In this document: positions 3-53,561 of the stretch, one piece after another | How positions within the stretch are numbered: position 1 is the stretch's first letter | Layout: each line of letters opens with the position of its first letter | DNA from: Flagellimonas nanhaiensis | GTDB taxonomy: Bacteria > Bacteroidota > Bacteroidia > Flavobacteriales > Flavobacteriaceae | NCBI RefSeq assembly: GCF_003382275.1 | Contig: NZ_QTJX01000002.1 | Coordinates: 558,001-622,000 of the forward strand | DNA length: 64,000 nucleotides | Direction: 5' to 3' | Notes under the pieces: generated by a model | Told to the model about the DNA's origin: nothing | What the model saw: the letters and a program-made list of their open reading frames with translations, nothing else | Database searches by the model: none | Translations under genes and position numbers: made by a program

Positions 3-902
3 GAAATCTATCAAGAAAGAAAAATGTTGGGAAAACTTGTTTTTCCACAGATACTAAAGGCCATTGACCATGATATGGCAAAGACGGTCTTCTCGTACAT
101 ACCCAACACAGCGGAAACATCATTCTTTGGTCTGGTCAAGGAGGCTCAAAATTATCTGAACCGAAGAAAGGAAGAACAGATTCTTGCATTGGGACCCAAT
201 ACAACACGTGAAGAATTGCATAAAATCCTGGATGTACGTCCTAGAATAGAAAAAGTGGCCATCAAGGATGCGAAACTCAGAACCTTTATTACCCAGGACA
301 GTAGTAGGGATGACCTAGTTACCCACGTTTATGATGTCTCCTACGGGTCGGTGAATAAAAATGATAACCTTGTAATTATTGACGACAGTATTGTACGAGG
401 TACTACATTGAAACGTAGTATTCTCAAAATTTTGGACCGCCTCTCGCCAAAGAAAATCATTGTGGTTTCCTCTGCCCCCCAAATACGATATCCTGATTGT
501 TATGGGATAGACATGGCCAAATTGGAAGACTTTGCTGCGTTTAGGGCAGCAAAAGCACTCCATGAAGATCATGGAACCACGCATGTCATCAAGGAAATCT
601 ACGAGAAATGCATAGCCCAGACAGCGAATAAGGACAAGGATGTTGTAAACTATGTAAAGGAATTCTACGCGCCATTTACGGCAGATCAAATTTCCAAAAA
701 GATAGCTGAGATATTGAGTCCTCCAGGAATCAATGCGGAGGTTGATATAATCTATCAGAGTATCGAGGGGCTTCACCAGGCCTGTCCCCAAAACCTTGGG
801 GATTGGTATTTTACCGGAGATTACCCCACACCAGGAGGGAATCGGGTTGTCAATCGGGCCTTCATAAACTTCTACGAAGGCAAAAACCAAAGGGCGTACT
901 AA
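3..902 (+). CDS. purF: Amidophosphoribosyltransferase, C-terminal half (5' end outside window)
   Basis: Glutamine PRPP amidotransferase makes phosphoribosylamine, the first committed step of purine synthesis in the cytoplasm. The frame is open to the left edge, so only about 300 codons are visible; the ATG at 24 is internal. The phosphoribosyltransferase domain is clear: the PRPP loop VIIDDSIVRGTT lies around codon 125 of the visible part, preceded by a YIPNTAE segment. The N-terminal Ntn glutaminase domain must lie upstream. The length visible fits the second half of the longer (about 630-residue) PurF found in Bacteroidota. The family assignment is firm; nothing about its promoter can be seen. 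No strong terminator follows directly; the first good hairpin downstream belongs to the repeated element at 1008. Confidence 0.93.
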   Translation, partial: EIYQERKMLGKLVFPQILKAIDHDMAKTVFSYIPNTAETSFFGLVKEAQNYLNRRKEEQILALGPNTTREELHKILDVRPRIEKVAIKDAKLRTFITQDSSRDDLVTHVYDVSYGSVNKNDNLVIIDDSIVRGTTLKRSILKILDRLSPKKIIVVSSAPQIRYPDCYGIDMAKLEDFAAFRAAKALHEDHGTTHVIKEIYEKCIAQTANKDKDVVNYVKEFYAPFTADQISKKIAEILSPPGINAEVDIIYQSIEGLHQACPQNLGDWYFTGDYPTPGGNRVVNRAFINFYEGKNQRAY

Positions 903-1007
903 TTTACATTTCTATAATCTTAAGTTAACACATGCATTTCGTCGATGATATGTGCAGATTACCGTGTTTTTGCGTGGCAGGTGAATGTCAAACTTACTTT
1001 AGTATTG

Positions 1008-1080
1008 CCATAGCATAAGTAGGTTAAGTTCATGGTAAGATTTGGGGCAAAAAAGGTGGAAGCTATTCCACCTTTTTTAT
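1008..1080 (+). ncRNA. Tandem small-RNA candidate, copy 1 (conserved 40-nt core plus terminator)
   Basis: The core at 1008-1047 begins CCATAGCATAAGTAGG and ends ATGGTAAGATTTGGGG. It recurs almost unchanged at 1227 and 1419. It is followed at once by a perfect 13-bp hairpin (1049-1061 with 1066-1078, loop GCTA) ending in six T, an intrinsic terminator. The hairpin sequence differs between the copies while its position and form are kept, which argues for an RNA product. A TAGTATTG just before the core is one base from the Bacteroidota -7 box. Inside the core CCAT can pair with ATGG. Upstream, 903-999 shows no gene. The RNA reading is inference; the repeat and hairpin are seen directly. Confidence 0.6.
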
Positions 1081-1226
1081 TTTAAGCTATTTCGTGTCTT
1101 CCTTTCCGTAATCCTTTTCCTTAACATTAGTACTCACAAACGGCAATCATGGCAATTCATCCAAATTAAAAGGGTTTCATCTAAAAAGCTTTTTCAAAGG
1201 CACCCCCTTGGCGTACATTTGGAGGA

Positions 1227-1296
1227 CCATAGCATAAGTAGGTTAAGTTCATGGTAAGATTTGGGGAAAGAAGGCGGACAGTGTCCGCCTTCTTTA
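1227..1296 (+). ncRNA. Tandem small-RNA candidate, copy 2
   Basis: The 40-nt core (1227-1266) is identical to copy 1 over its full length. The hairpin that follows has an unrelated stem: 1267-1279 pairs with 1283-1295 (13 bp, GC-rich centre, loop AGT), and the 3' arm ends in CTTCTTT. A perfect Bacteroidota -7 match, TACATTTG, lies at 1214-1221, a few bases ahead of the core; I see no clear TTG partner about 19 nt before it. The 146 nt between the copy 1 hairpin and this site are not repeated. The likely product is an RNA of about 70-75 nt. Confidence 0.6.
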
Positions 1297-1418
1297 TGTT
1301 TGAATCCCAAGTATTTAAGTGAATTTGTGAGATAAATCTTCTTTTCATCTCGCTTTCAAATCCAAAAAAAAATTCAAAACCTTTTGTTATTTCTCACAAT
1401 ACCAGTATTTTAGTCTCG

Positions 1419-1490
1419 CCATAGCATAAGTAGGTTAAGTTTATGGTAAGATTTGGGACGAAAAGGGCGGGGGCTTCCTCGCCCTTTTCT
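1419..1490 (+). ncRNA. Tandem small-RNA candidate, copy 3
   Basis: The core (1419-1457) differs from the other copies by one C-to-T change and by GGGA instead of GGGG at its end. The terminator has a third, unrelated stem: AAAAGGGCG at 1461-1469 pairs with 1480-1488, extended inward by a G-T and two G-C pairs, followed by CTATTG. Homology with copy 1 extends a few bases upstream (TTTAGT..T..GCC), so the conserved block may be nearer 50 nt. Copies start 219 and 192 nt apart. Confidence 0.6.
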
Positions 1491-1515
1491 ATTGTACCCT
1501 TTTTGAAAAAGAGAA

Positions 1516-1561: not shown

Positions 1562-3112
1562 TTATTTTACGAAAATGGATAGTCCTAACGATTCACCTGT
1601 TCCATCTATATCCATATCTAGAACTTGAACAATTTCTCCGCTGTCCTTATTGATCTTCCATACTTTTGCTACTATCATATCAAGACCAAAATCAATTTCC
1701 ACTCCTGTAACAAAAACATCATCCCCAAAAACCTGAATTGACACAAACCTTGTAATGGATTCTTCGTTTAGGGTAACCCATTCTACACCATTTTTCCAAA
1801 TCATGCCCTCTACTCCTTGATGACCTGCCACATAGATATCCCCATTATCCACTGCTACTGATCGAGCCTCTGAATCATCCGCTCCATTGCCCAGAACTAC
1901 ACTTTCCCCTTCACCACCGGTCCAATATTTTGCTACGTCCACTCCATCGGCATTTTCTTCATATCCCACGACCAGATATCCTCCATTGCCATCAGGTTTT
2001 ATAGAAAATGCATCGGCATAGTATTCGCCACTGTTCAGCAAAACTGGTGTTTCACCTCCATCCCAGACCATTACATGTCTAGTAGGCCCATCGCCCATTC
2101 CCAATATATAAGTTCCTGTTTCATCAACAAACATATCAGCACCTCTTGTATTGGTATGCATTCCAGAAGTCAAATTGACAGGAGAACCATTTTTCCATGC
2201 AATGCCTATTTCATTTTCTTTAAACTCCTCTACAATACTACCAACAACCCAAACGTCCTGCCCATCAATATACACAGCATTTCCTCTACCATATCTTATA
2301 GGAACGTTGTTTAAAACCTCCTTTGTCCCATTTTTCCAGAGCCTAGGTTGCGAATCACCCTCAACATATTCGTGCCCTGTGGCAAATATGTCCTCTCCAT
2401 TGCCCACAATAGAGCTTACCCCGGCATCCCCCGCTCCATTCAAAAGATATAATATGTTTCCATTTTTCCAGACTGTGGCAAAGTTATCGCCTTGCCTAAT
2501 TATTTCTCCTCCAACATATATGTCCGGGTTAACGGTTACTGTAATTTTAGCTGTAAGCTCTCCAATGGTAGCGGTAACCTCTATCGTGCCCACATCTACA
2601 GCAGTTATGGTTCCCTCACTATCGACCGTGGCTATGTTTGCATCACTGGTTTCCCATTCTGCCGTCTCTTCAAAGTCATCAATATTGTTTATGAGTATTG
2701 TTTCCGTGTCCTCGCGAAAAAGGACCAAACTGGTCTTGTTCAGTTCAATAGCGGAAGGCCCCTCTTTGGTGACCACAAAATCCGAAGCACTGGTAGCGGT
2801 CTTGTCACCCACCTTTACCGTGATCTTGCCCGTGGTGGCTCCATCGGGAACGGTGACCACCAACCGTGTGGTGCTCGCGGTTTGGATCGTGGCCGCCTGT
2901 CCGTTGAACTTGACCGTGTTGTCCCCTTTGGCGTCTCCAAAGTTCATTCCGTCCAAAACCACGGTGGTGCCCACCGGCCCAGTGTTTGGTTCTACCTTCT
3001 CTATTATTGGGACTTTGGTCTCTGGGGTTTGGGAATCATCGTCCTTTCCGCAGGAAAGGAACAGCAATGTCATTGACAATATCACCACCACCAAATATGC
3101 AATTTTTTTCAT
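1562..3112 (-). CDS. IPT/TIG and Big2 domain lipoprotein with repeated C-terminal region
   Basis: A 516-residue predicted lipoprotein: a hydrophobic signal ends in LSC at residues 20-22, followed by GKDDD, an acidic stretch typical of surface-exposed lipoproteins in Bacteroidota. Residues about 34-114 form an IPT/TIG immunoglobulin-like domain (VEPNTGPVGTTVVLDGMNFG). Residues about 118-195 form a bacterial Ig-like Big2 domain (ATVDSEGTITAVDVGTIEVTA). The rest, 197-516, has repeats of the type VWKNG, IYVAGH and DDVFVTG, resembling beta-propeller blades. No catalytic motif is seen, so the role is unknown; binding at the cell surface is a guess. The 5' third of the coding sequence is much richer in G+C than the remainder (39 of 60 bases at 2821-2880 against 21 of 60 at 2101-2160), suggesting the domains have different histories. 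Confidence 0.8.
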   Translation of the reverse strand: MKKIAYLVVVILSMTLLFLSCGKDDDSQTPETKVPIIEKVEPNTGPVGTTVVLDGMNFGDAKGDNTVKFNGQAATIQTASTTRLVVTVPDGATTGKITVKVGDKTATSASDFVVTKEGPSAIELNKTSLVLFREDTETILINNIDDFEETAEWETSDANIATVDSEGTITAVDVGTIEVTATIGELTAKITVTVNPDIYVGGEIIRQGDNFATVWKNGNILYLLNGAGDAGVSSIVGNGEDIFATGHEYVEGDSQPRLWKNGTKEVLNNVPIRYGRGNAVYIDGQDVWVVGSIVEEFKENEIGIAWKNGSPVNLTSGMHTNTRGADMFVDETGTYILGMGDGPTRHVMVWDGGETPVLLNSGEYYADAFSIKPDGNGGYLVVGYEENADGVDVAKYWTGGEGESVVLGNGADDSEARSVAVDNGDIYVAGHQGVEGMIWKNGVEWVTLNEESITRFVSIQVFGDDVFVTGVEIDFGLDMIVAKVWKINKDSGEIVQVLDMDIDGTGESLGLSIFVK

Positions 3113-3273: not shown

Positions 3274-3882
3274 TTACTTATTCGCCATATAATCTTCTGA
3301 AACTTTGTCCCAGTTGATCACATTATAGAATGCCGAAATATAATCTGGTCTTCTGTTCTGATAATTTAGGTAGTATGCATGCTCCCATACATCCAAACCT
3401 AAAATAGGGTATCCCCCACAACCTACTCCTGGCATAATGGGATTATCCTGATTTGGAGTGGAGCAAATCTCAACCTTACCTCCTTTTTGTACACACAGCC
3501 AAGCCCATCCAGAGCCAAATCTAGTAGCCGCAGCTGCGCTGAATTTCTCCTTGAATCCATCAAATGATCCAAAGGCTTCATCAATGGCTGCAGCTAAATC
3601 TCCGCTTGGGGTTCCACCGCCATTCGGGGACATTGCTTCCCAGAACAGGCAGTGGTTGTAAAAACCTCCTCCATTGTTTCGTACCGCTCCATTGGACATG
3701 TCCAGGTTAGACAAAATGTCCATTATATCCTTTCCTTCCAAATCGGTTCCCGCTATAGCACCATTTAATTTTGTAGTGTATCCATTGTGGTGCTTAGTAT
3801 GGTGGATTTCCATGGTTCTTGCATCTATATGTGGCTCCAAGGCATCATATGCATAGGGTAATTTTGGTAATTCAAAAGCCAT
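3274..3882 (-). CDS. sodA: Superoxide dismutase, Mn-type or Mn/Fe family
   Basis: Converts superoxide to oxygen and hydrogen peroxide; no signal peptide, so cytoplasmic. At 202 residues it is full length. The metal ligands are in place: His27, His77, Asp164 and His168 (the last two in DVWEHAYY). Two features favour manganese or mixed metal use rather than strict iron: the GGGFYNH segment before His77, and a Gln in the second-sphere position of Mn enzymes (NQDNP, Gln145). Iron enzymes carry the Gln in the NH-preceding segment instead. It stands alone, with its own terminator and about 110 nt separating it from the divergent helicase gene. The symbol is assigned on these residues; metal preference cannot be settled from sequence alone. 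Confidence 0.93.
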
Positions 3883-53128: not shown

Positions 53129-53461
53129 TTAATCTGATGCTCCCTCCACCTTCCAAATAAGTTCCCGCATTTGGTCCAAAAGAGCGGCTTCCTCAAAAGG
53201 AATGAGTTGGGCCGCCATCTCCAAAACGGTCTGGACGTGTACACGGGGCTCCTTTATGTTAGGGTGGTCCTCGGCGTTGGGGTTGCCCAGGGCCAAAGTA
53301 CAGACATTGATCAAGGCTTCCAGATGGAACAGCAGGTCTTGGTAGCCCTTTACATGAAAATGCTCCACTCCAAAACCCCCTTTTTGTGGCCGCAATGACC
53401 TAAAATGTTCCTGGGCCAAAAATTCCAGCCCCTTTAAAAAGGCATTTTCGTTGTTTTTCAT
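53129..53461 (-). CDS. Small protein of unknown function
   Basis: 110 residues, helical, soluble, no signal peptide. Features are FGVEHFHVKGYQDLLFHLEALINVC and an acidic C-terminal helix (FEEAALLDQMRELIWKVEGASD). Its stop abuts that of arfB on the other strand. The ATG at 53461 is used in place of a TTG two codons earlier. I recognise no family. Confidence 0.65.
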   Translation of the reverse strand: MKNNENAFLKGLEFLAQEHFRSLRPQKGGFGVEHFHVKGYQDLLFHLEALINVCTLALGNPNAEDHPNIKEPRVHVQTVLEMAAQLIPFEEAALLDQMRELIWKVEGASD

Positions 53462-53508
53462 GGTCAAAGATTTAAGTTTTCACCAAATGTAATCAAAACT
53501 ATCCTTTT

Positions 53509-53526
53509 TGCGGATTTACGTCCGCA
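53509..53526. promoter_or_regulatory. Palindrome upstream of the XRE-like gene
   Basis: TGCGGA-TTTACG-TCCGCA, flanked by T-runs, lies 36 nt before the XRE-like ATG. It could be the operator of that regulator or a small terminator; the flanks fit either. Confidence 0.4.
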
Positions 53527-53561
53527 TTTTTTATGCGAAGAACTCATTCCTTTGTTCTGAG

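Follow-up and report, generated by a model that had tools for sequence, protein, structure and literature searches.

A tandem array of candidate small RNA genes at the purF–sodA locus of Flavobacteriaceae and its probable complementary RNA partner

The window analyzed here is a 64,000-nucleotide stretch of a Flagellimonas nanhaiensis contig. Near its start, between a purF-like gene and a superoxide dismutase gene, it carries three copies of a 40-nt block that begin at positions 1008, 1227, and 1419. The features of this locus, in window coordinates, are as follows.

3–902, plus strand: 3' part of a purF-like gene, the conserved left flank (NCBIfam TIGR01134 purF, 42 bits for this fragment only, with a whole-protein cut-off of 350; synteny)
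932–964, plus strand: LytTR-like direct repeat before copy 1 (TTCGTC at 938–943 and a degenerate second unit, ATTACC, at 958–963, 20 bp apart)
995–1002, plus strand: -7 box TACTTTAG of copy 1, a degenerate form at the same distance as in copy 2
1006–1080, plus strand: putative sRNA copy 1 (type 1), terminator hairpin at ~1049–1078, ends placed from the sequence
1156–1181, plus strand: LytTR-like direct repeat before copy 2 (TTCATC at 1156–1161 and at 1176–1181)
1214–1221, plus strand: -7 box TACATTTG of copy 2, from sequence
1225–1297, plus strand: putative sRNA copy 2 (type 2), terminator hairpin at ~1267–1295, ends placed from the sequence
1382–1405, plus strand: element conserved upstream of copies of the last type (TTTTGTTATTTCTCACAATACCAG), with no 20-bp repeat
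1406–1413, plus strand: -7 box TATTTTAG of copy 3, a degenerate form at the same distance as in copy 2
1417–1491, plus strand: putative sRNA copy 3 (type 3, TTTATGG seed variant), terminator hairpin at ~1460–1489, ends placed from the sequence
3274–3882, minus strand: superoxide dismutase gene (sodA), the conserved right flank (Pfam PF02777/PF00081; synteny)

A gene for a TIG/Ig-like-domain protein (1562–3112, minus strand) also lies between the array and sodA. In most of the named loci listed that show both, sodA closely follows the array, and this gene is probably an insertion in the window's lineage.

The 40-nt block is identical in copies 1 and 2; in copy 3 a C-to-T change gives the seed TTTATGG, and the fourth G of GGGG is replaced by an A. 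The recurrence of this element, as the initial annotation had reported, is beyond chance: a search of the 4.03 Mb genome with a 63-nt query (E <= 0.001) returned three strong copies, all in the array. The terminator hairpins and T-runs that it had placed directly after each block were confirmed as well. Their stems differ in sequence from copy to copy yet pair in all three, with folding energies of -24.9, -27.8, and -30.1 kcal/mol and z-scores of -3.6, -4.8, and -3.6 for copies 1, 2, and 3. Every copy keeps a fixed register, in which a -7 box of the TAnnTTTG kind is followed by 5 nt, (G/A)CCATAGC, the 40-nt core, the hairpin, and the T-run. The perfect box noted earlier before copy 2 is present, but it is not unique, as degenerate boxes lie at the same distance in copies 1 and 3. 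With promoter and terminator signals for each copy, the array agrees with the earlier proposal of a family of ~70–75-nt RNAs in series, and the three intervals look like separate RNA genes of ~75 nt, each with its own -7 box and terminator.

Folding predicts a 5' hairpin (ACCAU...AUGGU) in all three window copies. Over 20 copies, 91% of its pair cells form and covariation is no better than in shuffles, so the hairpin is treated as a prediction. The nearly invariant parts of the core are the loop side of this hairpin (AUAAGUAGGUUAAG), the stretch that follows it (GAUUUGGGG), and the segment CAUAAGUAGGUUAAG. An A-to-T change in the core (CAUUAGUAGG) was found in one genus. A conserved peptide (MVRFG, from ATGGTAAGATTTGGGG) was ruled out: a 1-nt deletion (ATGGTAGATTT) is frequent in relatives and shifts the frame.

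We searched 199 Flavobacteriaceae genomes, the F. nanhaiensis genome included and each from another genus, and 190 gave a DNA match at E <= 1. As counted from the result rows, 162 genomes had a strong array match (E <= 1.6e-8), 28 a weak one, and 9 none; family members without a strong match include genomes G131, G119, G174, and G267. A scan of named genomes gave at least 118 stretches, from genera that include Maribacter, Zobellia, Allomuricauda, Flagellimonas, Winogradskyella, Aquimarina, and Flavobacterium. Among the 118 loci listed, 114 show a purF, sodA, or recB-like gene in the stretch, and where both flanks are visible in these loci the array lies after purF, on the purF strand, and before a convergent sodA. 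When a model of the core only (R2) was run over 345 genomes of the phylum, strong matches were restricted to Flavobacteriaceae, the best match outside the family having an E value of 0.0087. Weak matches outside the family (L212–L218, L234–L237, and L399–L401) were set aside as chance, and among those tested none adjoined purF or sodA. The initial annotation had named a match to a known DNA repeat, such as a transposon end, as a finding that would speak against it; the array had no match in viral contigs (exact pattern) or in phages and plasmids (blastn).

Arrays in the loci listed hold 1–6 copies. For typing, we took 113 of the 118 loci listed and left out copies close to the end of a stretch, duplicate copies, and those in which the 17-nt core was not exact. 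On the sequence just after the core start, the 237 copies used fell into three types, with 12 unassigned. In the 19 listed loci with three copies, the first copy was type 1 in 17, the second type 2 in 12, and the third type 3 in 17. The order of types 1, 2, 2, and 3 in the 12 listed loci with four copies was held at the successive positions by 11, 11, 10, and 12 loci. The usual array among the loci listed therefore reads as one first type, zero to four middle types, and one last type, with expansion in the middle. Upstream sequences in the 19 three-copy loci listed had a likeness of 0.42–0.50 between copies of the same rank across genomes, compared with 0.37 between different ranks in the same genome. 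The spacers had been described as not conserved, which does not hold between species, where they contain conserved promoter and operator-like elements.

The -7 box was observed at its fixed place, among the loci listed, in 79 of 104 type 1 copies, 53 of 57 type 2 copies, and 61 of 64 type 3 copies, with shuffled means of 3.6, 0.9, and 1.4, respectively. A 20-bp repeat of TTYRHC-like units was present in 40/104, 32/57, and 2/64 copies of types 1, 2, and 3 in these loci (shuffled mean 0.01). The spacing between units in types 1 and 2 (loci listed) was 20 in 74 pairs and 21 in 8, with every other spacing seen in at most 6. In the window, copy 3 has no repeat units at 20-bp spacing, and in copy 1 the strict repeat rule detects only the first unit. 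Full units read GCATTTCATCGA, which is close to the repeat GGCATTTCAT described for the YpdB/LytTR site of E. coli, itself a direct repeat (PMC4847170). The likeness to such sites lies in GCATTTCATCGA-like direct-repeat units upstream of a promoter; the array period is 20 bp, whereas the general rule given in that source for LytTR sites is 9–11-nt repeats with 11–13 spacer nucleotides (PMC4847170). Because similar direct repeats stand before many first and middle copies and before the RNA units downstream of hflX described below, a LytTR-type response regulator probably drives both. We counted 27 LytTR domains in the F. nanhaiensis genome, none linked to the repeat, and the operator pattern gave 25 matches in this genome versus 8 for the control, 16 of the 25 within long frames. 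Separately, L294 1500–1670 (C8:481119 of the same genome) has a direct repeat of the GCATTTCAT type together with a TACATTTA box; a 28-aa hydrophobic frame and a gene for 5-formyltetrahydrofolate cyclo-ligase (TIGR02727) lie downstream.

A single secondary match was listed in the F. nanhaiensis genome, at C8:830526–830569 (E 0.18), downstream of hflX and on the hflX strand. This stretch has promoter-like and terminator sequence, holds only 13- and 16-aa frames at the site (non-coding by eye), and includes 18 nt exactly complementary to the array core. The identity of HflX was checked on the protein of genome G108 (TIGR03156, 441 bits versus 217), which is 89% identical to the F. nanhaiensis HflX. 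In F. nanhaiensis this stretch lies 271 kb from the array, and the distance between array and hflX is 270–350 kb in genomes with both located. We sought hflX by fetching stretches at that distance and found it in seven array-bearing genomes; in G314, G154, G190, G102, G172, and G080 it lay outside the stretches taken. Units downstream of hflX were present in five of the seven, namely F. nanhaiensis, G032 (three in tandem), G056 (two), G108, and G160. G143 and G104 have the array and hflX with no such units downstream. No Rfam family was found in the hflX loci L410 and L411.

Complementarity between these units and the core exceeds what shuffled sequences give. Five hflX units, one per genus and with the last 40 nt removed, contain 8 exact complementary sites of at least 8 nt, with a dinucleotide-shuffle mean of 0.58, none of 1000 shuffles as high, and no sites on the opposite strand. 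All eight units together contain 14 sites versus 1.02 in shuffles (0/1000 as high). Sites such as CCCCAAAT(C) and (A)ACCTACTT are typical and lie opposite GAUUUGGGG and AAGUAGGU in the sRNA. The predicted duplexes are strong for the F. nanhaiensis unit (-49.9 kcal/mol, z -8.0), G032a, G032b, and G056a, moderate for G160 (-30.9, z -3.2), and weak for three of the eight, G108 (z 0.2), G032c (-1.9), and G056b (-2.2). Upstream of all eight units we observed TTCATC (once TTTATC), followed 20 or 21 bp on by a second like unit (e.g., GTTAAT or CTTAAC).

The initial annotation had treated a core occurring widely without hairpins as evidence against its reading. The three strongest recurrences outside the array, all in other genomes, lack a terminator and lie antisense over gene starts. 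Secondary R2 matches in G309 (E 4.6e-5 and 0.0013) and G304 (E 4.3e-4) are antisense to CAP-domain lipoprotein genes (PF00188, 44–53 bits), where they cover the leader and the start codon, and they are not considered sRNA genes because no terminator follows. Matches in G125 (E 0.107) and G157 (E 0.0073) are antisense to the starts of 42- and 41-aa frames adjoining scoB. Of the 18 secondary matches listed in array-bearing genomes, 7 cover in antisense the start of some ORF (at least 40 aa), one of them also in sense; the remaining 11 are not over a start, 2 being in hflX units and 9 elsewhere. Random windows meet a start on one strand in 7% of cases. Among secondary matches in family members without a strong array match, 1 of 6 was antisense over a start (an enoyl-CoA hydratase gene), and among those from other families, 0 of 3. 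That hydratase start (L392, ~1019–1070), in a genome that lacks a strong match to the array, agrees with the core complement over a long stretch and may be a remnant target or chance.

A profile of the hflX units, run over 471 loci and the window, also matched stretches after scoB in G108, G104, and G056 (scoB identity from the G108 protein: TIGR02428, 322 bits versus 244). These three stretches are the promoters and leaders of a 35-aa frame. A fourth match (L454, genome G102) had no complementary sites, and matches near an F. nanhaiensis LytTR gene (L300/L360) and at L249 were rejected, covering the promoter part only with no site of at least 9 nt. The profile matched the antisense strand of many array cores as well (E 0.01–0.1), in agreement with the complementarity. 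Six peptides, from the three 35-aa frames, the G125 and G157 frames, and a second G108 frame, have L, KK, and FM in common near the C-terminus; the small proteins next to scoB are 35–42 aa long and end in LxKKxFM(L/F). No NCBIfam or Pfam match was found for the small-protein frames scanned. At L424 (14656–15620), two LxKKxFM(L/F) frames flank a 124-aa lipoprotein-like gene after scoB, where neither the first small frame nor the lipoprotein matched Pfam or NCBIfam.

Across five genera, the scoB leaders contain 8 complementary sites of at least 8 nt versus a shuffled mean of 0.54 (0/1000 as high), a count that is partly selected, since three of the five leaders came from a profile itself containing such sites. 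The three profile-found leaders alone have 4 sites versus 0.34 in shuffles (0/1000). The leader of the 124-aa lipoprotein-like gene of G108 carries CCCAAATC and AACTTAACCTAC directly before the ATG. Predicted duplex energies were -34.5 to -49.9 kcal/mol in 11 of the 15 pairs tested, with shuffled-sRNA means of -14.9 to -23.0; the z-scores are inflated because the targets were picked by pairing-like searches. Taken with the antisense-over-start matches, leader complementarity is seen in several lineages, with the same partial selection.

No mRNA targets were located in the F. nanhaiensis genome. A sample of its gene starts showed no pairing excess, with 27 of 246 at or below -14 kcal/mol versus 21 +/- 7 for shuffled seeds, the latter estimated on every second start. 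The complement-of-seed pattern gave 36 matches in this genome, 3 of them the array itself, versus 18 for the control, without a clear target set. The complement-of-loop pattern gave 25, 3 of them the array and 22 besides, versus 86 for the reversed control, and likewise no target set.

The complementarity of the core to a second RNA gene and to the start regions of small proteins and lipoproteins suggests an RNA control circuit that has not been described. On balance, we favor a reading in which the array encodes three independently transcribed, trans-acting antisense sRNAs of ~75 nt that would block translation of the leader mRNAs and would be titrated by a complementary decoy RNA downstream of hflX. 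Beside the directly observed gene anatomy, synteny, array order, complementarity beyond shuffles, and enrichment of promoter boxes and repeats, this reading supposes transcription, repression, a decoy role, a LytTR identity for the regulator, and an inducing signal. The signal would act through the putative LytTR-type regulator on transcription of the first and middle copies. The loop side of the 5' hairpin (AUAAGUAGGUUAAG) and the following GAUUUGGGG would then pair over ~20–40 nt with target leaders and start codons, from about -40 to the start codon. Predicted targets are the 35–42-aa LxKKxFM(L/F) protein next to scoB, the CAP-domain lipoproteins, and the 124-aa lipoprotein. By pairing, the sRNAs would mask the start region and so block initiation, and the hflX RNA, sometimes in tandem, would titrate the sRNAs through its complementary sites. 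Sponge RNAs are known to titrate sRNAs, and the suggestion in the initial annotation of redundant regulators or sponges was a fair outline; the complementarity points to regulators of mRNA leaders, and the sponge-like RNA would be a second gene, 271 kb away. Messenger RNAs of this phylum are described as being without Shine-Dalgarno sequences (PMC6847099). Repression is proposed because of the position of the pairing, by analogy with FopS in Bacteroides, for which this has been reported (PMC11697453).

The roles could also be reversed, or the sRNAs could stabilize their targets. With reversed roles, the array RNAs would be decoys and the hflX RNA the regulator, its longer transcript captured by the invariant core. 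Both sides can be tandem under similar repeats, and the near-invariant core positions coincide with the hflX RNA sites. Yet it is the array core that pairs with the mRNA leaders found, leaders and hflX RNA agree in sense, and two genomes keep the array without a unit after hflX; we regard this arrangement as unlikely.

No Rfam family matched the array region at its gathering score. Flavo-1, the family that the initial annotation had offered as a possible match, is absent from the 35 matches at E <= 10 in 880–1580, and weak matches there to sraA, STnc40, Yfr19, and RmaA were rejected as they seem to be based on generic hairpins. The closest comparison is FopS of Bacteroides thetaiotaomicron, described as multicopy sRNAs of ~65–70 nt with sigma-ABfr promoters and terminators, whose member FopS-10 blocks susC translation at the start region (PMC11697453). 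The array could be a Flavobacteriaceae branch of FopS that represses SusC-like transporters by start-codon pairing: both are multicopy, ~70 nt long, with a Bacteroidota-type promoter and terminator and pairing near start codons (predicted here), and the FopS consensus and the core have UUCAUGGUA..AGAUUU, with a 2-nt gap, in common, a likeness to the R1' seed of FopS that could be due to homology or to convergence. However, the FopS model (RF04319) scores the array at 21.0 bits, far below the gathering score of 56, which was passed by 2 of 296 genomes, both of one other family. FopS copies are dispersed, are reported in Bacteroidaceae and one phage, and are described with a 5' end predicted to be single-stranded and with RbpB, an RRM protein, as the bound protein (PMC11697453). 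The array instead is an ordered tandem with a predicted 5' hairpin, other predicted targets, and a complementary partner RNA; the F. nanhaiensis genome gave no RRM protein (PF00076), where a control Bacteroides did. Nor was a SusC bias found in this genome: the 14 SusC starts over the family cut-off have pairing energies of -5.9 to -17.0 kcal/mol, compared with a mean of -10.0 for the 246 starts, and 13 of the 14 are unremarkable. We consider a FopS branch improbable and do not file the array under FopS, from which it departs in model score, partner protein, and predicted 5' structure; it is best called a multicopy sRNA family of its own with a probable complementary partner RNA. The FopS model also gave a weak match (26.4 bits, E 0.13) elsewhere in the F. 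nanhaiensis genome, at C8:611451–611536 (window 53451–53536, plus strand), and, at L320 in another family of the order, one of 43.9 bits (E 6e-5) that stays under the cut-off of 56. A shared TTTTCATAGGATAAGGTTTAA..GGTTA with a terminator-like hairpin after it was seen in two genomes of another family (L321 and L337) and may mark one more FopS-like family.

RNAs that titrate proteins typically have tandem hairpins, and the array RNAs might bind a protein through the invariant hairpin loop, in the manner of CsrB or 6S, with mostly incidental antisense matches. The near-invariance of CAUAAGUAGGUUAAG fits this. Against it stand the complementary sites at hflX and at scoB, each in five genera and in excess of 1000 shuffles, and the 7 of 18 listed secondary matches that are antisense over starts against 1 in sense; we regard this reading as improbable. 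That the repeats with terminators lie directly after purF might indicate a cis-acting or mobile element, either serial attenuators of a neighboring gene or a DNA repeat, but we regard this as very improbable given that the right-hand neighbors are convergent (sodA in the named loci listed that show it), that the copies have their own promoter boxes, and that the synteny is fixed with no phage, plasmid, or viral-contig match.

Returning to antisense sRNAs with an hflX decoy, a fuller version can be put forward as a tentative possibility. It would be a two-sided circuit confined to Flavobacteriaceae, in which the ordered purF–sodA sRNA array and the complementary, sometimes tandem hflX RNAs, both under LytTR-like repeats, compete for and with the mRNA leaders of surface lipoproteins and of the tiny LxKKxFM(L/F) proteins. 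With one promoter class common to these leaders and the hflX RNA, target, decoy, and regulator would be transcribed together, and the copy number on each side would set a threshold.

Sibling sRNAs described in other phyla, such as Qrr, LhrC, and OmrA/B, likewise comprise several near-identical sRNA genes per genome (PMC11697453). The array is set apart from these and from sponge RNAs, as they are described, by its fixed order of promoter types and by a partner RNA that can itself form an array. Rfp18 of Flavobacterium psychrophilum is a conserved Flavobacteriaceae sRNA that acts on mRNAs, as is predicted for the array, and differs by description in having its pairing region in the third stem-loop and metalloproteases as targets (PMC9723704). 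Among the openly accessible journal papers that the searches listed, no title or abstract describes the array, and no paper was found for the letters of its core.

Functions are known for few Flavobacteriaceae sRNAs, Rfp18 being the case in the literature considered (PMC9723704). The F. nanhaiensis genome also gave no RRM protein like the one bound to FopS in Bacteroides. An sRNA found across the family, for which a partner RNA, leaders, and a candidate operator can be named, would make sRNA action in this phylum directly testable in a laboratory strain. Finally, the fixed order of promoter types in an expandable array may serve as a natural experiment on sRNA dosage.
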